Shown: positions 39,183 through 46,814 of the stretch, piece after piece
Layout: each line of letters starts with the position of its first letter
Position numbering within the stretch: position 1 is the stretch's first letter
DNA from: Halomonas sp. KAO
Lineage (GTDB): Bacteria; Pseudomonadota; Gammaproteobacteria; Pseudomonadales; Halomonadaceae
Assembly: GCF_015595025.1 (NCBI RefSeq)
Contig: NZ_JADNRL010000024.1
Coordinates: forward strand, 167,499-231,498
Length of the DNA: 64,000 nt
Direction of reading: 5' to 3'
The notes under the pieces: model-generated
What the model was told of the DNA's origin: nothing
What the model saw: the letters and a program-made list of their open reading frames with translations, nothing else
Databases searched by the model: none
Program-made: the position numbers and the translations under genes

Positions 39183-39505
39183 GTCTCGAGTTTCCTTGTG
39201 AGTCGCTTGCAGAGTCGTCGGGGCTACTCCGGCGCCCCTGGCTGTGAGGTTGTTGAAGCTGTGGTGGAAAAGGCGATCAGCATACCAGCAGTATCGAATG
39301 AGCTCAGCTTTTCCTTCTCCTGATCCATAGATAGCGAGCTCGCCTGCGGCGACCTCAGGAGGTAAATCACCCGGTTGTCGTGGTCGAGCGGCTCTATTGT
39401 TTCCTATCCGGGGGTGGGGCCTCTGGCTTGGTTCTTATTGCCTTTTTGTCTATGTTAATAAGTGGATGTCGCTGATAGGGCCCTCAAATCTCTTCAGGAG
39501 CGCGC
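39183..39505. other. 323-bp intergenic region upstream of the cbb3/thiosulfate operon
   Basis: It holds divergent promoters for the OsmC gene and the oxidase operon, the left flanking repeat at 39348-39398, and an AT-richer stretch (about 39425-39465). No palindromic FNR/ANR-type TTGAT-N4-ATCAA box could be found by eye. AGGAG at about 39496 serves the first oxidase gene. Confidence 0.5.
39348..39398 (+). repeat. Left flanking direct repeat of the oxidase cluster
   Basis: A 51-nt segment running from GGCGAC to TCTATT aligns with 46763-46814 in the same orientation at 42 of 51 positions with one single-base gap; eight of nine mismatches are transitions. The two copies bracket the operon 39506-46700. 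Confidence 0.8.
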
Positions 39506-41104
39506 ATGAACTTCACCATCGGCACTCTACTGGCTTTCAGTTTCGCTGCCTCCCTGATCGCCGTCGCGGCGCTGATCTGGGCCATATCGACCCAGCAGTT
39601 CAAGATCACCGAAAGTGACGCCCGGGCAGTATTCGACGAGGGCGAAGGCGGCAAACTGGATGACCCCACCTCTTCTCATAGTGACAGGTCGCCAAGCGCC
39701 CAGCAGCCGGGAATGAGCGGAGAGTGGCGCCGTTTATTGATCGTCATGTTCGTGACGAGCACCGCCTGGCTGGTATTCGGCTCAGTATTCGGCGTCATCG
39801 CCTCATTGAAGCTGCATATCCCGGACTGGTTGACCGGCAGCGCACCGCTGACCTTTGGCCGCATGCGCACCTTGCACTTGAACTCGGTCATCTATGGTTT
39901 TCTTTCTCTGGGGGGAGTGGGCACTGCGTTCTGGTTGGTGCCCACCCTGTTCAAGGTCTCTTTGCAGAAAGTCCGCTTCGCTATGTCCGGCGCGGTGGTA
40001 TGGAATCTGGCATTGCTTGCCGGGGTCGTCGTCATCGCCATGGGCTGGAACGACGGCCAGGAGTGGCTCGAAATTCCCTGGCAAATCGATATTTTCCTGG
40101 CCGTTGGCGGTGCTTGCTTCGCCATCCCTCTGCTCTACACCACCGCGGCCCGCAGGGTAAATCATATCTACGTGACCGGCTGGTATTACATGGCGGCACT
40201 CTTCTGGTTTCCGGCGCTGTTCATTCTCGCCAACCTGCCCGGGGTTCATAGTGGCGCCCAGCAGGCCACCGCCAATTGGTGGTTTGCTCACAATGTGCTG
40301 GGCCTGTGGTTGACGCCGCTGGGTCTGGGCGCCGCCTACTATTTCATTCCCAAGATCATCGGCAAGCCGATCTACTCCTATCGGCTGTCGCTGCTGGGGT
40401 TCTGGGCGCTGGCACTGTTTTACAGCCAGGTGGGCATGCACCACCTGATCGGCGGCCCGGTACCTACCTGGGTGGTGTCGCTCTCCGTGGTGCAGTCGGT
40501 AATGATGGTGATTTCAGTCATTGCCGTGGCCATCAATCAGCATACGCTGAGCCTGGGAAATCTATGGGCCTGGAAGGAGAGTCTGCCGCTTCGTTTCGTT
40601 GCCCTCGGCGCGATCATGTACACCCTTGCTTCGCTGCAGGGCTCGCTTGAAGCGGTGCGCGCCTTCAATACCGTCACTCACTTCACCCACTACACCGTGG
40701 CTCATGCCCATCTGGGCGTTTACGGCTTTGTGGCCATGGTCTTGTTCGGTGGTATCTATTACATGCTGCCACGCATCACCGGCCGTGCCTGGCCCATGCC
40801 CTGGGCGATCAGTCTGCACTTCTGGCTGGTGGTCGCGGGATTTGCCATCTACTTCATCGCGTTAACCATAGGCGGCTGGCTGCAGGGCATGGCAATGCTC
40901 GACGCCAGCAGGGACTGGCTGGAGAGCATGGAAGTGACCATTCCCTACTTGGCCGGTCGCTCCCTGGGCGGCACCTTGATGACCATCGGGCACCTGGTAT
41001 TCGCCGCTAACCTGGCCGTGCTGTTTCTTGGCCGTACCCGCCGATTCGTAGAAGACGCGGGCGATACTGATGCCTCGGTTGCCACCCCGAGGTCGGGAGC
41101 CTGA
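39506..41104 (+). CDS. ccoN: cbb3-type cytochrome c oxidase subunit I with CcoS-like N-terminal extension
   Basis: The 532-aa protein is longer than usual CcoN (about 475 aa). Residues 1-55 form one membrane helix followed by QQFKITESDARAVFDE, closely resembling the small assembly protein CcoS. From about 72 on it is a C-type heme-copper oxidase core: His124 (low-spin heme), His262, His312 and His313 (copper B), Tyr306 six residues before the His pair (the cross-linked active-site Tyr of cbb3 enzymes) and His400/His402 (hemes). The Tyr argues for oxygen reduction, not nitric oxide reduction. It heads a six-gene operon with AGGAG before the ATG. Confidence 0.9.
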   Translation: MNFTIGTLLAFSFAASLIAVAALIWAISTQQFKITESDARAVFDEGEGGKLDDPTSSHSDRSPSAQQPGMSGEWRRLLIVMFVTSTAWLVFGSVFGVIASLKLHIPDWLTGSAPLTFGRMRTLHLNSVIYGFLSLGGVGTAFWLVPTLFKVSLQKVRFAMSGAVVWNLALLAGVVVIAMGWNDGQEWLEIPWQIDIFLAVGGACFAIPLLYTTAARRVNHIYVTGWYYMAALFWFPALFILANLPGVHSGAQQATANWWFAHNVLGLWLTPLGLGAAYYFIPKIIGKPIYSYRLSLLGFWALALFYSQVGMHHLIGGPVPTWVVSLSVVQSVMMVISVIAVAINQHTLSLGNLWAWKESLPLRFVALGAIMYTLASLQGSLEAVRAFNTVTHFTHYTVAHAHLGVYGFVAMVLFGGIYYMLPRITGRAWPMPWAISLHFWLVVAGFAIYFIALTIGGWLQGMAMLDASRDWLESMEVTIPYLAGRSLGGTLMTIGHLVFAANLAVLFLGRTRRFVEDAGDTDASVATPRSGA

Positions 41105-41108
41105 TGCT

Positions 41109-41726
41109 ATGAATCGTGCCTTACCCTTGATTGTCGTTACCCTGGCGCTCCTGGCCCTTGCCACCCTGTTCCTGGTGGCGGGGCCGGCGATGCAGATTCG
41201 TACCATCGACGCTCCGGAGGGGCTCGAGCCCTACACCCAGGCCCAGCTAAATGGACGCGCAGAATATATAAGCCAAGGCTGTGTCTATTGCCACTCCCAG
41301 CAGCCGCGCTCTCCCGAGCAGGCTCCGGATGGGCTGCGCGGCTGGGGGCGCCCCTCGACGCCGGCGGACTATGTCTATGATCAGCCGCATCTACTGGGCA
41401 CCATGCGCACCGGGCCGGACCTGCTTAACGTGGGGGCGCGCCTGCCCTCCCAGGCCTGGCATTTGACCCACCTGTATCAGCCACGGGCCATCGTGCCGCA
41501 AAGCATCATGCCGGCCTACCCCTATCTGTTCGAAGCCAAGGTGCAGGCGGCGGAAGATGATGTGGTCGTTCCAGTGCCGGCGCGCTATCGCCCCGAGGGA
41601 AAGTTCATCGTCGCCAGGCAGGCGGCCCTCGACCTGGTTGACTATCTGCTCAGCCTCGACCGTACCTACCCCGCAGAGCGAGTTGATCTTCGAGATAATG
41701 GCTTCGCGGCCAAGGAGGAGTCATGA
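41109..41726 (+). CDS. ccoO: cbb3-type oxidase subunit II, mono-heme cytochrome c (CcoO-like)
   Basis: The 205-aa protein has one N-terminal membrane anchor (about 5-24) and a single heme c site CVYCH at 58-62 inside LNGRAEYISQGCVYCHSQQ, which parallels the CcoO sequence around its CxNCH site. HLYQPRAIVPQSIMPAYPYLF carries a likely Met axial ligand. CcoO passes electrons from soluble cytochromes to the CcoN core. The start at 41109 lies four bases after the ccoN stop; the frame from 41070 overlaps ccoN. The stop overlaps the next ATG (ATGA). Confidence 0.9.
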   Translation: MNRALPLIVVTLALLALATLFLVAGPAMQIRTIDAPEGLEPYTQAQLNGRAEYISQGCVYCHSQQPRSPEQAPDGLRGWGRPSTPADYVYDQPHLLGTMRTGPDLLNVGARLPSQAWHLTHLYQPRAIVPQSIMPAYPYLFEAKVQAAEDDVVVPVPARYRPEGKFIVARQAALDLVDYLLSLDRTYPAERVDLRDNGFAAKEES

Positions 41727-42439
41727 CCTGGAGGCATGATCCAAAGCCCAGCCGGAAGCCTAAAAAACAGAGTCGAATAAAGAACGTAGCCGGTATCAGC
41801 GATACCGGATTCGACCCCCACGAGCCGCCAAACCCCATTCCTTGGCAAGTGTTCGCCATCGCTTTCGCCCTGGCGATTTGGGGCATCGTCACTCTGATCA
41901 CGACAAGCGAGATGGCGGAAACGAAGCCGGAGGCTATCCAGGGCCCCATCGGAGCAGATGAACCCCAGGCCTCCGCCGTCGCGCCTTCCACGCAGAATGG
42001 GCGCCAGCTATTTATCGCCAATTGCTCCACCTGCCATCAGAACAATGGTGCAGGCATCGCCAAGGCGGTGCCACCGCTGGTGGGATCCCGTTACGTGATG
42101 GCAGCGCCGGAGGTGCCGGTAAACATTCTGCTGTTCGGCATCCAGGGAGAAATCTCCGTGGCTGGCGATACCTACAATGGCCGCATGCCTACCTTTGGTC
42201 ATGACCTGGACAACGAGCAGATCGCCGCCGTGGTGAACCATGTGCGCAACAGCTGGGGCAACCAGGCCTCAAGCATCGATGCGAGTTTTGTCGATGAGCA
42301 GCGTCAGCGCTCTATCGGTCGTCGTACCCCCTGGGCGGGCGGCAGGGAACTCGCCGAGACCTTCGGTATTCCTGCATCGCTATCGAGGAGTCATACCCAG
42401 GCGGCTGCGACCACAGCTTCGCGGGAGGAGGCCAAATGA
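41723..42439 (+). CDS. Membrane-anchored mono-heme cytochrome c (CcoP-like)
   Basis: The 238-aa protein has a cytoplasmic basic N-terminus with the CcoP-like segment DTGFDPHEPPNPIPWQ, one membrane helix (about 42-60) and one cytochrome c domain with CSTCH at 101-105 and MPTF as probable Met ligand region. Canonical CcoP has two heme sites, so this is a reduced form with one. It probably docks to CcoN/CcoO as the third subunit and accepts electrons from the following cytochromes. Four-base overlaps on both sides show translational coupling. Confidence 0.8.
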   Translation: MTWRHDPKPSRKPKKQSRIKNVAGISDTGFDPHEPPNPIPWQVFAIAFALAIWGIVTLITTSEMAETKPEAIQGPIGADEPQASAVAPSTQNGRQLFIANCSTCHQNNGAGIAKAVPPLVGSRYVMAAPEVPVNILLFGIQGEISVAGDTYNGRMPTFGHDLDNEQIAAVVNHVRNSWGNQASSIDASFVDEQRQRSIGRRTPWAGGRELAETFGIPASLSRSHTQAAATTASREEAK

Positions 42440-43314
42440 TGAGCTCATTCAAGACGACTGGCAGGCTGGTGACCTGCGCGGCGTTACTCATCCTGGGCAG
42501 CGGATTGGCAGCGACTTCCTGGAGCCAGGGTCAAGACGATGATGCTGGAGAACGTACCGACTCAGAACCACTGACCACAAGCGCGGATCCTCTCGAAGAG
42601 CCATTGGCGGCACTGCACTACGGGCGTATTGCCGCCAACGCCGATGCCGCAGGCATCGAAACGCTGATCGGCAAGGGCACCGACAAGGTCTGGGCCTGCG
42701 CTTCCTGCCATGGTGATCAGGGGCAAGGAGCGGAAACCGTGCCACGGCTGGCCGGATTGCCGGCGGGCTACCTCACCAAACAGCTACACGACTATGCCAA
42801 TCAGCGTCGCCTGAACGCCAACATGCAGTATGTGGTGGAAGGCCTGACCGGTGAGCAGATGGCGGCGCTTGGCAAGTATTACGCCCAGCTGGAAAGCCCC
42901 AGCAGTGCCAAGCCAAGTCTCAGCGGCGACCTGGATCGCGGTCGTGAACTCGTGCTGCGGGGCGACTGGAGCATCGATGTGCCGGCTTGCTACAGCTGCC
43001 ACGGCTCCTCCGGTTGGGGCGTAGGGCAGGCGTTTCCTGCCCTCGCCGCTCAACACCCAAGCTATACTTATATCCAGCTCGCCAGCTGGAAGAATGGTCG
43101 GCGAGCCAACTCGCCGGTCAATCTGATGCACAACGTCGCCACGGCGCTTTCTGAGAATGATATGCGCTCCGTAGCGGACTATCTGGCCTCGTTGCCTGCA
43201 CCGCCGGCGCAGAAAATCGGGCTCGATACGCCGCCCCCGGAAGCATTATCGACATCGACAGACACCGCCGATCGTTCACAGGACCGTCAACAGGGGAGCG
43301 ACGAGCATGACTGA
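42436..43314 (+). CDS. Periplasmic diheme cytochrome c (c4-like, candidate TsdB)
   Basis: The 292-aa precursor has a signal peptide (hydrophobic stretch about 11-30) and two cytochrome c domains with CASCH at 88-92 and CYSCH at 185-189, the tandem layout of cytochrome c4. In Pseudomonas stutzeri and others a c4-like diheme protein, TsdB, is encoded next to TsdA and takes electrons from it. Position directly before the TsdA-like gene supports that role. The function as electron shuttle between TsdA and the oxidase is inference. It overlaps both neighbours by 4-8 bases. Confidence 0.75.
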   Translation: MMSSFKTTGRLVTCAALLILGSGLAATSWSQGQDDDAGERTDSEPLTTSADPLEEPLAALHYGRIAANADAAGIETLIGKGTDKVWACASCHGDQGQGAETVPRLAGLPAGYLTKQLHDYANQRRLNANMQYVVEGLTGEQMAALGKYYAQLESPSSAKPSLSGDLDRGRELVLRGDWSIDVPACYSCHGSSGWGVGQAFPALAAQHPSYTYIQLASWKNGRRANSPVNLMHNVATALSENDMRSVADYLASLPAPPAQKIGLDTPPPEALSTSTDTADRSQDRQQGSDEHD

Positions 43315-44470
43315 TCACAGGAATTCGCGGATGGGGCGCTCGAGCAGGCGCCGCTTCGCCTATGCCGGCGTGGGTGCGGTCGTACTGCTCGCTGCAGGCG
43401 TGCTCATCGCCAACTATAACCTGTTTCCCTATGTCACCGGCCCTAAGGAACAGCCAAGCCAGGCAGAAGAGAACGCCCAGATTGCTCGCAAGGCGCGCCA
43501 GGATCTCGCAGAGCAACGCAAGGCCTGGCAGGAAGATCCCAGGGCGGACGCCCCCAGGCCACCCAAGGATGCCGCAGGCTACTTTCAGCCATCGCTTGAT
43601 CACGAAATTCCCGATAATGAGTTCGGCGAGTCGGTACGGCGTGGCCGTGAAATCTTCTTGAACACCGGCACCAACGCCCGGCAGTTCGCCGGCAATGAAC
43701 TTGCCTGTGCCAACTGTCACCTGGATGGTGGGCGCAAGGCGCACTCGGCGCCAATGTGGGCGGCGATCAACAACTACCCGGCCTATCGCGGCAAGAACAA
43801 GATGATCAACACCATGGAAGACCGCATCAACGGCTGCTTCACCTACTCCATGAATGCCCAGGACTCCCCCAGCGGGGGGCCGCCGCCCTCGGGACACCAG
43901 GTCTACAAGGACTTGCAGAGCTATTTCTACTGGCTGGGCGATGGCGCACCCATTAACGAGGACATGCCGGGTCGCGGCTACCCAAGCCTGGAAAAAACCG
44001 ATCTCGGCTATGACCGGCAGCGTGGAGAGGAGGTTTTCGTCAACAACTGCGCGGTATGTCACGGGCTGGATGGCCAGGGGCAGAAGGATCTCAATGGTCG
44101 TTATATCTTTCCGCCGCTATGGGGGCCACACGCCTACAACTGGGGGGCGGGCATGCATCGCGTCAACACCGCTGCGGGCTTCATCAAGGCCAATATGCCC
44201 CTGGGCAAGCCCTATAGCCTGAGCGATCAGCAAGCTTGGGACGTGGCGGCCTATATCAACAGTTTCCCGCGCCCGGCGGACCCTCGCCAGCTGGAGGAAG
44301 GCATCAGCCTCGAAAGGGCCCAGGAGAAGTACCACCAGCACATGGGCTACTACAACCAGCAGGCCCATGGGGTTAGCTTGGGTGAAGGCGCCACACCGGA
44401 ACGCTGGGAGCGCTTCGTGAAGTCTCGGCGAACCGCCGGCATGTCCACCATGAACCAACAGCTGCAGTAA
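43307..44470 (+). CDS. tsdA: Diheme cytochrome c, thiosulfate dehydrogenase (TsdA) family
   Basis: The 387-aa protein has an N-terminal RSSRRRF-type signal or anchor (hydrophobic 18-36), and two heme c sites, CANCH (134-138) and CAVCH (248-252). Cys177 in EDRINGCFTYSMN lies 39 residues after the first heme His; in Allochromatium TsdA the unusual His/Cys ligation uses a Cys 43 residues after its heme His in the same RINGC context. IKANMPLG (Met297) suits the second heme. TsdA oxidises two thiosulfates to tetrathionate in the periplasm. Neighbouring oxidase genes suggest the electrons go to oxygen. A SoxA-like alternative is less likely because no other sox genes occur. Confidence 0.75.
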   Translation: MTDHRNSRMGRSSRRRFAYAGVGAVVLLAAGVLIANYNLFPYVTGPKEQPSQAEENAQIARKARQDLAEQRKAWQEDPRADAPRPPKDAAGYFQPSLDHEIPDNEFGESVRRGREIFLNTGTNARQFAGNELACANCHLDGGRKAHSAPMWAAINNYPAYRGKNKMINTMEDRINGCFTYSMNAQDSPSGGPPPSGHQVYKDLQSYFYWLGDGAPINEDMPGRGYPSLEKTDLGYDRQRGEEVFVNNCAVCHGLDGQGQKDLNGRYIFPPLWGPHAYNWGAGMHRVNTAAGFIKANMPLGKPYSLSDQQAWDVAAYINSFPRPADPRQLEEGISLERAQEKYHQHMGYYNQQAHGVSLGEGATPERWERFVKSRRTAGMSTMNQQLQ

Positions 44471-44474
44471 CTCG

Positions 44475-46700
44475 GTGGGCAGGCGACGAAAGGGTAGCGA
44501 ATGCCCTGAACTCGAGGCGCTACAGGGTAGCGGCCACGCGCTGCTGTCGATCGACGGGCTCTGGTGCCCGAGCTGCGCCGCCGCCACGGAGCAGGTGATC
44601 CAGCGTACCCCCGGAGTCAGCGAAGTCGGTGTCAGCTTCGCCACTTCCACTGCCCTGATACGCTGGGACCCAACGCGGCTGCAGCTGCGAGACCTGGCTC
44701 GCCGAGTCCGCCGGCTGGGCTACCGCCTGGGCCCGCCCATGAGCGCGGAGGAAACCCTCTCGCGCATCGACCGTCAGGTCGAGGGGCTCGGCATTCGTCT
44801 GGCGGTCGCGGCCTTCTTCGGCATGTGGACCATGCTGCCGTCGCTGCTGCTTTATCTCGACAGCGGCGGCATCGCCACTTCTCCCGCCGGTTGGTGGATC
44901 GCCTTCGCCGCGGGTATCGCGTCGCTCCCGGTGCTGGCCCTTACCGGCGGCCCGATCCTGCTGGCGGGCTGGCGCACCCTGCGCACCGGAGTGCCGGGCA
45001 TGGATACCCTGGTCGGCATCGGCGCCACTGCTGCCCTGGCCCTGTCGCTCTGGCAGCTCTACCGAGGCCAGGCCCACGTCTATTTCGATACCGCGGTGAT
45101 GCTGGTCACCCTGCTGACCCTGGGCCGCTTCATCGAGACCCGTACCCTGCGCCATGCGGCCCAGGCCATCGACGCCCTGCAGGATACCCTGCCGGAAACC
45201 GCGGACTGGCTGCAGGACGACGGCAAGTTCCAGCGAGTCGATGCGACGGGGGTTCCGCCGGGCGCCTTGATCCAGGTGCCCGCCGGCCAGCGAGTGCCGC
45301 TGGATGGCCGCCTGGTGGAAGGCCGGACCCAGCTGGACCGGGCGGTGCTGACCGGGGAATCCCTGCCGGTGGCCGCCGCCCCCGGAGACGCTATCGAGGC
45401 GGGCTGCGTCAACCTGGTCAGCCCTATCCTGGTGAGAGTCGAGGCCGGAGTGGGGCAGCGGCATATCGACCGTATCGGTGCGCGTATCGCCGAGGCGGCG
45501 GGAGCCAAGGGCGACACCCAGCGCCTGGCAGACGGCGTGGCCCGCTGGGTGGTGCCGGTGGCGCTGACCCTTGCCTTCTTGACCGGCCTGGTAAGCGCGC
45601 TGCTCGGCCTGCCCGCGCAGGAAGCGGTGCTGCGGGCGGTCTCGGTGCTGGTGGTGGCCTGCCCCTGCGCGGTGGGTATCGCCGTGCCGGTGGCCTACGT
45701 GACCGCCGCCAGCCAGGCGGCTCGCCAGGGCATCCTGTTTCGCCACCCCGCGGCCCTCGAGACCATGGCCCGGATCGACCGGATACTCTTCGATAAGACC
45801 GGCACCCTCACCGAGGGACGGCTTGGCTTGCTGCGTGTCGAACGGCGCAGCGACAGCGCCCTCGACGACGCCGCCCTGATTGCCCTGGCCGCCTACGCTG
45901 AACAGGGCGTCGATCATCCCATCGCTCAGGCACTGCAAGACGCTACCGGTGAAAACCCTTCGATGGTGTCAGCGGCGCCCGTTCGGCGCCACCAGCGCGG
46001 GGTCAGCCGCGAGGACTCCCATTGGGGCCGTATTCTGGTGGGCAGCCGCGCCTTCCTGAGCCAGCAGGGTATTGCCTGTAACGACGCGGATGACCACGAT
46101 GTGACAAGCCCCGATATTCAGCTACGGGTCGAGCTGGCGGTAGCCGGACGATGGCTGGCGACCCTGGTGCTGGAGGATCGTTTGCGGGAGGATGCCCCGG
46201 CGGCGATACGACGCCTGCATGATCAAGGGATCGAATGCGCCATCGTTACCGGCGACGCCCGAGCTCCAGCCGATCGGATAGCCGAGCGTCTTGGTATCTC
46301 GAAGCAGCGGGTCCATGCGGATTGCACCCCGGAAGCCAAGGCTCTGATCGTCAAGCATACTCGAGGCAGTGTTGCCTTCGCCGGTGACGGCATCAATGAT
46401 GGCCCAGCCCTGGCCCAGGCAGCGATCGGCCTGTCCGTGGCGGACGCCAGCAGCACCGCCACCGCGGCGGCCGGTGTGGCCATTGCCGAGGGCGGTGTCG
46501 GTCGAGTCGCCGATGCCCGGGCGTTCGCCCGGCATGCCTATGGCGTCATGCGCCAGAACCTGGCGTTCGCGCTGATCTATAATGCCCTGGGCTTGAGCCT
46601 TGCTGCCTTCGGCGCTATTCCGCCGGTGGTCGCCGTTATTGCCATGGCGATGAGTTCGCTGACCGTGGTGGCTAATGCCACGCGACTGGCGGCACAGTAG
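44475..46700 (+). CDS. ccoI: Copper-translocating P-type ATPase, CcoI/CopA2-type
   Basis: The 741-aa P1B ATPase has one heavy-metal-associated domain (LWCPSCAAA, Cys31/Cys34), the membrane CPC metal site at 396-398, TGES in the actuator domain, the phosphorylation motif DKTGT starting at Asp440, and GDGIND near the end. A single metal-binding domain and linkage to cco genes fit CcoI/FixI, which exports Cu+ slowly for insertion into the CuB site of cbb3 oxidases. It starts with GTG four bases after tsdA and lacks a strong ribosome-binding site, so it is probably translated by coupling. ccoG and ccoH are not present in the cluster. Confidence 0.9.
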   Translation: MGRRRKGSECPELEALQGSGHALLSIDGLWCPSCAAATEQVIQRTPGVSEVGVSFATSTALIRWDPTRLQLRDLARRVRRLGYRLGPPMSAEETLSRIDRQVEGLGIRLAVAAFFGMWTMLPSLLLYLDSGGIATSPAGWWIAFAAGIASLPVLALTGGPILLAGWRTLRTGVPGMDTLVGIGATAALALSLWQLYRGQAHVYFDTAVMLVTLLTLGRFIETRTLRHAAQAIDALQDTLPETADWLQDDGKFQRVDATGVPPGALIQVPAGQRVPLDGRLVEGRTQLDRAVLTGESLPVAAAPGDAIEAGCVNLVSPILVRVEAGVGQRHIDRIGARIAEAAGAKGDTQRLADGVARWVVPVALTLAFLTGLVSALLGLPAQEAVLRAVSVLVVACPCAVGIAVPVAYVTAASQAARQGILFRHPAALETMARIDRILFDKTGTLTEGRLGLLRVERRSDSALDDAALIALAAYAEQGVDHPIAQALQDATGENPSMVSAAPVRRHQRGVSREDSHWGRILVGSRAFLSQQGIACNDADDHDVTSPDIQLRVELAVAGRWLATLVLEDRLREDAPAAIRRLHDQGIECAIVTGDARAPADRIAERLGISKQRVHADCTPEAKALIVKHTRGSVAFAGDGINDGPALAQAAIGLSVADASSTATAAAGVAIAEGGVGRVADARAFARHAYGVMRQNLAFALIYNALGLSLAAFGAIPPVVAVIAMAMSSLTVVANATRLAAQ

Positions 46701-46762
46701 CCGGCGAAGGCGACATCAGATGCCAGGATGACACGGTAACCCTCGCCCTCGAGCCCGCTGGT

Positions 46763-46814
46763 GGCGACACTCGGGAGACCAATCATCCGGTTGCCGTGGC
46801 CGAACGGTTCTATT
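46763..46814 (+). repeat. Right flanking direct repeat of the oxidase cluster
   Basis: Partner of the segment at 39348-39398, in the same orientation, about 82 per cent identical by hand alignment with one gap. It lies 63 bases after the ATPase stop, in the gap before murU. Confidence 0.8.

Follow-up and report, generated by a model that had tools for sequence, protein, structure and literature searches.

Does the six-gene operon at 39506-46700 of the window (the whole 64,000-nucleotide stretch of the Halomonas sp. KAO genome analysed here) encode a complete electron chain from thiosulfate to oxygen, and is that chain dedicated to this purpose? An earlier note, made from the sequence alone, had proposed a module dedicated to heterotrophic thiosulfate oxidation. 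We re-examined the genes, surveyed related loci and weighed other roles for the oxidase.

Gene content and conserved residues of the operon

All six genes claimed in the earlier note are present on the forward strand and are as tightly packed as described: a 4 bp gap separates CcoN and CcoO, CcoO overlaps the CcoP-like gene (Pm) by 4 bp, Pm overlaps TsdB by 4 bp, TsdB overlaps TsdA by 8 bp, and a 4 bp gap precedes the ATPase gene (Table 1). The gene families held as well, with corrections: CcoN appears to carry a FixS/CcoS-like fusion, and the 'CcoP-like' protein has a single heme motif.

Table 1. Positions of the operon genes and of the flanking repeats in the window
Feature	Coordinates	Strand	Evidence or remark
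FixS/CcoS-like domain fused to CcoN	39506..41104	+	PF00115 (COX1) 1.8e-76; catalytic subunit, C-type heme-copper oxidase
FixS-like part of the fused CcoN (putative)	residues ~5-43, nt 39518-39634	+	PF03597 18.0 bits, below gathering score 23.1
CcoO/FixO, monoheme cytochrome c subunit	41109..41726	+	PF02433 5.9e-35; solved CcoO matches ~1e-28; CVYCH
Monoheme CcoP-like membrane-anchored subunit (Pm)	41723..42439	+	one CxxCH; PF00034 2.4e-11
c4-type diheme cytochrome, TsdB	42436..43314	+	CASCH + CYSCH; solved-structure match TsdB half of 5lo9
TsdA thiosulfate dehydrogenase (predicted)	43307..44470	+	5lo9 1.3e-83, 4v2k 3.3e-53; RINGC Cys, heme-2 Met; tree
P1B-1-type Cu(I) ATPase, CcoI-like role inferred	44475..46700	+	GTG start; TIGR01511 + TIGR01525 above cut-off
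Left copy, imperfect 65-bp direct repeat flanking the operon	39335..39398	+	78% identity to right copy
Right copy, flanking direct repeat	46750..46814	+	78% identity to left copy

The operon sits as an insertion between two genes that are direct neighbours in 22 of 24 congeners. The assembled genome contains the 28-bp core pattern of the flanking repeat at two places, the two flanks, and none of the other loci compared showed these repeats. Upstream of the operon, a sigma-70 promoter scan gave 0 sites against 1.4 expected and no FNR-like boxes were seen.

The first gene seems to join a FixS/CcoS domain to CcoN. PF03597 was matched by 11 of 11 fused homologues at E values up to 0.1, three listed scores (18.0, 16.1 and 17.1) all lying below the 23.1 cut-off, and at E up to 0.01 the fused CcoN of locus L076 went unmatched. 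In L150 and L141 a small ORF of its own directly precedes CcoN and scores 24.8 and 21.6, respectively, against this model. Histidine ligands of hemes b and b3 and of CuB, a helix-VII tyrosine and a conserved glutamate (E323) have known roles in CcoN. Among 87 aligned FixS~CcoN rows, which contain at least two repeat records, the CuB and heme b3 histidines and the active-site tyrosine are kept in every row and H60 in 86, the remaining row having a gap; the position of P. stutzeri E323 is Gln in 82, the window included, and Glu in five. The nearest solved relatives of this CcoN are cbb3 oxidases.

Pm matches the ccoP model TIGR00782 over its C-terminal heme part (44.6 bits, cut-off 180) and has a hydrophobic segment after an FDPxExxxPIP motif that is, by eye, common to the fused subunits. 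It carries one CxxCH, where a cbb3 oxidase is expected to have a diheme CcoP, and no CcoQ gene lies between CcoO and Pm in the operon. The idea that the operon is a fragment of a canonical CcoNOQP set is rejected; a set that looks canonical is found at another place in the host genome (L008).

The ATPase has the motifs of a Cu(I) P1B-1 pump (HMA CPSC, CPC, YN and MxxSS), in keeping with the copper ATPase named in the earlier note, but its sequence identities do not support the proposed CcoI type: it is no closer to the host's own CcoI-like L182 (34%) than to another copper ATPase (L181, 36%), with 32-33% to L183 and L184, and 30-31% to L185 and L186.

The TsdA assignment, with its RINGC cysteine, is borne out. 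The protein scores 30.1 bits against the SoxA-TsdA_cyt-c family (cut-off 27), its best solved match is Marichromatium TsdBA (5lo9, 1.3e-83), followed by Allochromatium TsdA, and in the tree, a placement outside TsdA having been named beforehand as grounds for refutation, it falls among TsdAs. SoxA is rejected, since the match to TIGR04484 reaches 49.1 bits where the cut-off is 110 and the TsdA matches are far stronger. The heme-1 ligand column is Cys and the first CxxCH histidine is present in all 67 module TsdA rows (three of them repeat records); the second CxxCH histidine, the heme-2 axial Met and the Asn preceding it, where Lys or Asn is expected, are each found in 66, the exception being the truncated L101, which was excluded from the TsdA tree and the distance test. 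We infer that the module TsdA is a thiosulfate dehydrogenase, for which tetrathionate formation is predicted. Its N terminus looks like an uncleaved membrane anchor: judged by eye, the ten module TsdAs compared all have an anchor-like N terminus, and most of five stand-alone TsdAs have cleavable-looking signals. A stand-alone TsdA of strain SOB56 is also described with a transmembrane region in excerpts of PMC9237845. The best solved match of TsdB is the TsdB half of 5lo9 (9.7e-31), then cytochromes c4, and cytochrome c4 and cbb3 CcoN share PDB entries 8smr and 8snh.

Linkage and descent of the genes in other bacteria

The survey for conserved linkage that the earlier note had called for gave a strong result. 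Our sample consisted of the 80 CcoN relatives nearest to the window, from a scan of named genomes; tsdA lies beside the oxidase in 76 of these loci, a rate biased upward because they are the nearest ones, is absent in two and is cut off by contig ends in two. The tsdA-linked loci span alpha-, beta- and gammaproteobacteria. In the CcoN tree, from which Tsd-linked L132, L133, L142 and L144 were excluded, 66 Tsd-linked rows form one clade together with three Tsd-less and two cut rows. Across the 52 of 64 cluster representatives that have all five genes, CcoN and TsdA distances correlate with r = 0.84, the highest value after shuffling being 0.17; the clustering used a wrong CcoN copy for L053, and the later count used the right one. 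The shared linkage and the correlated distances reject chance neighbourhood, and the parts, residues, gene order, fusions and common descent of the linked oxidases can be read directly from these loci. ATPase distances track those of the other module genes less well (r 0.68-0.74), and the ATPase gene was not found, among the 80 loci, in six Thioclava-group and two Alcaligenes loci or in L101, L102 and L115; its history is in part different from that of the rest of the module.

In 43 of the 80 loci a Pm-like part and TsdB form one triheme protein. In 17 others, the beta type, the TsdB hemes appear directly on the CcoP-like anchor, and the same anchor motif directly precedes the diheme c4 in the 11 representatives of this type displayed; TsdB has a gene of its own in the window, as it does in 16 of the 80 loci. 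The fusions and the TsdB hemes on the anchor suggest that TsdB is part of the oxidase.

Many bacteria that are only distantly related share this gene set, which therefore has the look of a portable respiratory chain for a sulfur compound; such respiration could pass on whole, plasmids included. Only seven of 95 TsdA-bearing genomes of the host's family have the module, TsdA usually occurring there without it. Modicisalibacter ilicicola DSM 19980, a culturable strain, is among the carriers of the operon. It is also carried by Thioclava, Guyparkeria and Thiorhodococcus, which are autotrophs or facultative ones, so 'heterotrophic' in the original proposal is too narrow; a dedicated module is supported by the comparisons.

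According to excerpts of PMC7608252, a gene cluster of Erythrobacter flavus is induced by thiosulfate, and on deletion of its tsdA thiosulfate is no longer lost and no tetrathionate is formed. This tsdA probably sits in a module-like locus: on the assumption that the locus tags of that paper run in steps of five, and by synteny with the relative L076, gene counts match over part of the cluster (four genes between SoxB and TsdB and one between TsdA and the next SoxB-like gene). Farther upstream, between an MBL-like gene (by eye) and SoxB, the counts differ, five or six genes in one against three in the other. L076 is the single basis of this comparison because our survey gave no second locus of its layout: TsdA was present at E<=1e-60 in 11 of 249 sphingomonad genomes, one of them that of L076, and the layout was not repeated in the eight further loci read. 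One of these, L198, has CcoN and CcoO near TsdA; the intervening gene was miscalled by the gene finder, and an ATPase was not among the calls. In the remaining seven, none of the called genes matched the oxidase subunits.

We consider it likely that the operon is a dedicated thiosulfate:O2 electron-transfer module, and we rate it as a new and widespread variant of known parts. A membrane-anchored TsdA would join two thiosulfates to tetrathionate and pass two electrons to the diheme TsdB; the latter would be bound within the third subunit of the oxidase, instead of shuttling freely, and would hand the electrons through CcoO to the heme b and heme b3-CuB centre of FixS~CcoN, where O2 would be reduced. 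The P-type ATPase would supply copper for CuB, and the fused FixS-like domain may be an on-board assembly factor. Enzyme activity and its direction, TsdA anchoring, direct electron transfer, copper delivery and energy conservation are thus predictions of this scheme. Electron entry at the level of cytochrome c fits the thiosulfate/tetrathionate Em of +198 mV given in excerpts of PMC9562282. Direct donation from TsdB to cbb3 has already been proposed for Halomonas, as excerpts of PMC9237845 state; it stands as a proposal in the literature found, and the module would give a testable answer to the fate of TsdA electrons.

Oxidase cores without TsdA and alternative roles

Of the 26 loci with such an oxidase core that the sampled sets contain from other genomes, 18 have no Tsd. 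The core is therefore not Tsd-specific and need not be committed to thiosulfate. In three Tsd-less loci the neighbours are sulfur-related: SorAB-like sulfite dehydrogenase genes follow the core in L134, SQR-like, MBL dioxygenase-like, SulP and rhodanese genes adjoin it in L140, and a methionine-gamma-lyase-like gene in L040; among all these neighbours, SulP and rhodanese alone exceed the curated cut-off for a model bearing their name. This allows speculation, which we take seriously yet hold as tentative, that evolution has used the FixS~CcoN/CcoO/short-CcoP core as a plug-in O2-reducing base for periplasmic sulfur dehydrogenases, giving single membrane complexes in each of which one sulfur compound would be oxidised by O2 directly, without quinone and bc1; as part of the same tentative reading, TsdA would serve for thiosulfate in one clade and SorAB for sulfite on a Paraburkholderia plasmid.

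The same neighbours, together with Gln at the E323 position, could also point to a general sulfur-tolerant oxidase that respires where sulfide or sulfite poisons normal oxidases, its dehydrogenases varying by lineage. We regard this as unlikely, though it is compatible with a dedicated module: other Tsd-less copies lie next to Sco, CopC/CopD or MsrAB genes, and no sulfur-oxidation genes were recognised around them by eye. Alternatively, the genes could be co-regulated and not dedicated, the oxidase receiving its electrons chiefly from bc1 via ordinary cytochromes c, with TsdBA as no more than another feed into that pool. The host has further oxidases and a second, stand-alone tsdBA (at G000:C24), and cores without Tsd exist; the Pm~TsdB fusions, the single clade with correlated distances and the anchor-like N terminus of module TsdAs nevertheless make this a distinctly unlikely account. 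TsdA enzymes catalyse both directions (excerpts of PMC6879331), but action as a tetrathionate reductase with an incidental oxidase is highly improbable given the paired O2 reductase and the thiosulfate consumption lost on deletion of the probable E. flavus homologue. A nitric oxide reductase, brought to mind by a Tsd-less paralogue about 9 kb from norCB-like genes (by eye) in the host genome, is the least credible identity and is rejected on the conserved active-site tyrosine, the CuB histidines and the cbb3 relatives.

Comparison with known systems

The dedicated module, if correctly read, suggests a physical thiosulfate:O2 complex, makes tsdA beside FixS~CcoN a genome marker for thiosulfate respiration and indicates a cbb3-like oxidase branch with a third subunit remodelled around its electron donor. 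No description of this operon was found in the open-access literature searched. Like canonical cbb3 oxidases (CcoNOQP with CcoGHIS; 3mk7, 8smr), it has the CcoN active site, CcoO, a copper ATPase and a putative CcoS-like assembly part. Unlike them, it lacks a CcoQ gene, apparently joins the CcoS-like part to CcoN in one protein, and has Gln at the E323 position and a CcoP cut to one heme or replaced by the TsdB hemes; a long branch separates the present CcoN clade from canonical CcoN.

A distal cbb3 subtree was reportedly recognised by Ducluzeau et al. in 2008, as citing papers have it, and is said to be a second cbb3 kind of different subunit composition. In Sideroxydans ES-1 the distal ccoNO rise on thiosulfate (excerpts of PMC8788666); tsdAB of that strain (Slit_1877-1878) is neither upregulated nor highly expressed on thiosulfate.

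With TsdBA of Marichromatium (5lo9) and TsdA of Allochromatium (4v2k/4wq7) the module shares the TsdA family, the heme ligands and an adjoining diheme c4-like TsdB, whereas the present pair is embedded in an oxidase operon, its TsdA seems to be anchored and, in many loci, an oxidase subunit includes TsdB. The tsdB-tsdA pair of H. titanicae SOB56 is alike, and the host's stand-alone locus is similar to it; the excerpts of PMC9237845 name no oxidase gene beside that pair.

Genes of the operon

The window lies on contig C7 of a 3.7 Mb genome assembled in 47 contigs. The tight packing of the six operon genes, with the overlaps and gaps listed in an earlier note on this DNA, was confirmed by gene calls. 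Domain searches identified the products, in order, as a FixS-like stretch with COX1, FixO, a CcoP-like cytochrome with one heme, a c4-like cytochrome with two, TsdA and a P-ATPase of the Cu type, and found no integrase or transposase among them.

The first gene, previously read as CcoN, does contain a COX1 domain but is not a plain CcoN: residues 5-43 resemble FixS/CcoS (18.0 bits, short of the gathering score of 23.1). All 11 scanned homologues of this FixS~CcoN fusion gave a FixS/CcoS match at E up to 0.1; L076, from a relative of Erythrobacter flavus, gave none at E 0.01. L141 and L150, which are deep relatives, carry a FixS-like part as a small gene of its own that overlaps CcoN, so the fusion may be derived. 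The genome is Halomonas-like, and Halomonas sp. PR-M31 and Modicisalibacter ilicicola hold the nearest relatives of its module; in PR-M31 two overlapping frames make up FixS~CcoN, apparently at one locus (Table), as a result of a frameshift or else a sequencing error. In P. stutzeri numbering, the active-site Tyr and the histidine ligands of CuB and of hemes b and b3 are kept in 87/87 CcoN rows (H60 is gapped in one); at position E323, 82 rows have Gln and five have Glu.

The third gene resembles CcoP, as proposed, in its heme domain, which aligns with the C-terminal portion of the CcoP model but scores below the cut-off; it has a single CxxCH, and a motif FxPxE..xPxP precedes a hydrophobic segment. 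The c4-type diheme cytochrome was correctly recognized, its best structural match being the TsdB half of 5lo9 (Marichromatium TsdBA), followed by cytochromes c4. The TsdA assignment also stands against solved TsdAs: 5lo9 (1.3e-83) and Allochromatium TsdA match and RINGC is kept. The heme-2 ligand site is Asn-Met, as in other Halomonas TsdAs according to PMC9237845. The N termini of ten module TsdAs look like uncleaved anchors and most of five stand-alone TsdAs have cleavable-looking signals; this call was made by eye, which slightly lowers confidence in a dedicated thiosulfate:O2 module.

The ATPase has the Cu(I) motifs expected of the CcoI type, but the CcoI-like ATPase of the same genome is not specifically its closest relative. 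With the window as reference, ATPase identity is 66% for L051/L057 (CcoN 85-90%) and 84% for L031 (CcoN 75%). The gene is inverted in L030, and no copy turned up at 11 of the best 80 of 493 loci, those cut close by excepted; the Thioclava-group loci L105, L107, L109, L111, L113 and L121 have no ATPase match in about 7 kb downstream of the module. GC content near the gene steps from 0.61 to 0.68. By these comparisons the ATPase is the loosest member of the module.

Table. Coordinates of features in the window and at related loci
Feature	Location	Strand	Remarks
Six-gene operon	window 39506-46700	+	tight packing (gene calls)
Imperfect 65-bp direct repeats	window 39335-39398 and 46750-46814		78% identity; flank operon
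Canonical-looking ccoN, ccoO, CcoI-like ATPase, ccoS	L008 (own genome)		by eye
norB-like COX1 gene adjoining norC-like gene	L009 (own genome)		by eye
Second FixS~CcoN-CcoO-monoheme CcoP set	L009 15545-18918 (G000:C10)		no Tsd; copper ATPase degraded to remnant
aa3- or caa3-like oxidase	L010 (own genome)		by eye
Stand-alone tsdBA	L011 (own genome)		flanked by two-component system and DsbG-like gene; by eye
FixS~CcoN in two frames	L057 9956-11598; L033 4584-6178		Halomonas sp. PR-M31
Second distant TsdA-like protein, triheme cytochrome	L069 7618-9878		upstream of module
Triheme cytochrome, second TsdA-like protein	L116 595-2900		some 7 kb upstream of module
FixS~CcoN-CcoO-monoheme-ATPase, then SorA-like, SorB-like sulfite dehydrogenase genes	L134 7887-14752		Paraburkholderia fungorum plasmid

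Distribution, descent and mobility

The earlier note had proposed surveying genomes for linkage of these families, and linkage was found: tsdA is present at 76 of the 80 loci nearest the window (best 80 of 493 CcoN relatives in a scan of named genomes), a sample that leans to Tsd linkage because of that nearness. Among these 80, tsdA is missing in L102 and L115, and L081 and L095 are cut by contig ends; L101 has a truncated tsdA. At E<=1e-90, and with our own genome included in each count, FixS~CcoN occurs in 16/275 genomes of the family (17 loci, seven Tsd-linked and ten without Tsd), 3/341 of the order, 6/369 of the class and 5/398 of the phylum. With our genome left out, 8 of the 26 FixS~CcoN loci from these samples are Tsd-linked.

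A quick maximum-likelihood tree was built from representatives, and the tool warned of long branches. In it the 66 Tsd-linked CcoN rows fall in a single clade of 71 (SH-aLRT 100), together with the Tsd-less L035 and L102 with L115 and the two contig-cut rows; the other Tsd-less forms included fall outside. In the TsdA tree, module TsdAs need two label changes and Halomonas stand-alone TsdAs are nested among them. Pairwise distances at 52 loci correlate at 0.84 (CcoN-TsdA), 0.82 (CcoN-TsdB) and 0.73 (CcoN-ATPase), against <=0.23 in all shuffles, a null that ignores shared ancestry of hosts.

Among 24 congener loci checked (13 more distant genomes were left out), the OsmC-like and MurU-like genes flanking the operon stand side by side in 22; one of the others runs off its contig and one lacks MurU in the stretch examined. 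Thus, judged by gene order, the operon is an insertion splitting these two genes. Within the assembled genome, the 28-bp core pattern of the flanking repeats is confined to these two places.

At 97% CcoN identity the 80 loci form 64 clusters, some across families as labelled, a sign of recent transfer or of mislabelled MAGs. CcoN at least 97% alike across labelled families or orders (L066, L067, L069, L070, L072, L073; L117-L120) suggests very recent transfer or else contamination of the MAGs. Nine plasmid records carry this CcoN; two of five examined are Tsd-linked, one of these being pBEN of Paracoccus versutus, a plasmid typed as conjugative. On these sequence data, the module is widespread and mobile.

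Arrangements similar to that in L069 (Table) occur in L066, L067, L070, L072, L073, L080, L082 and L086. The second TsdA-like proteins are 32-36% matches, with one CxxCH only in L066. Given the extra TsdA-like protein and triheme cytochrome, the L069-like loci and L116 may hold two Tsd systems.

Other oxidase sets and indications of function

Beyond COX1 matches, respiratory genes of our genome were named by eye from gene calls; the Tsd-less oxidase set in L009 lies, also by eye, about 9 kb from the norCB-like genes. In L134, SorA-like (572 bits, cut-off 600) and SorB-like (67, cut-off 93) proteins both score under curated cut-offs. Just upstream of the core in L140 are SQR-like (209 bits, cut-off 525), MBL dioxygenase-like, SulP (over cut-off) and rhodanese genes, and Sco or CopC/CopD genes lie by the core in L131, L135 and L150. 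These varied partners indicate that the oxidase core is not bound to thiosulfate, yet sulfur genes recur beside it.

As described in PMC7608252, a gene cluster of E. flavus 21-3 is induced on thiosulfate; when its tsdA (D0Y83_01395) is deleted, thiosulfate is not consumed and tetrathionate is not detected, and the gene directly before tsdA is proposed as TsdB. In L076 the module is bracketed by SoxB-like genes that score 205 and 242 bits (cut-off 550). As far as the published cluster could be compared, both have four genes between SoxB and TsdB and one between TsdA and the next SoxB-like gene, and the counts differ further upstream. From these equal counts, the unnamed E. flavus genes are probably oxidase and ATPase. 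The main text of PMC7608252 contains no word beginning 'oxidase', and the L076 layout was not found again in a survey of its family. For Guyparkeria sp. SCN-R1, PMC9032823 notes a tsdA homologue of putative function; this gene sits in the module (L103). In Sideroxydans ES-1, PMC8788666 reports 'distal' ccoNO up on thiosulfate but not tsdAB.

At the genetic level, the reading as a thiosulfate-to-oxygen module put forward in the earlier note is upheld, and spread, mobility and gene fusions carry it further; we consider a dedicated module with this predicted function likely.

Fusions of the CcoP-like subunit with TsdB

The 76 tsdA-bearing loci (best 80 of 493) fall into three types. In 43, mostly alphaproteobacterial yet including Luteimonas, the CcoP-like subunit and TsdB form one chain of typically about 410 residues, with the anchor motif, one heme motif and then the two of TsdB. 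Another 17, mostly betaproteobacterial but with Marinobacter salicampi and Halopseudomonas, have TsdB and no separate CcoP-like subunit; its anchor directly precedes the two TsdB hemes (11 representatives displayed). Separate genes are found at 16, mostly gammaproteobacterial, and also in Palleronia, Paracoccus solventivorans, Sulfitobacter and Limimaricola. The types are thus not strictly tied to classes, which we count as slightly lowering confidence. The fusions are the strongest argument for reading TsdB as a functional component of the oxidase. Such fusions predict a physical complex; in PDB entries 8smr and 8snh, cytochrome c4 and cbb3 CcoN are present together.
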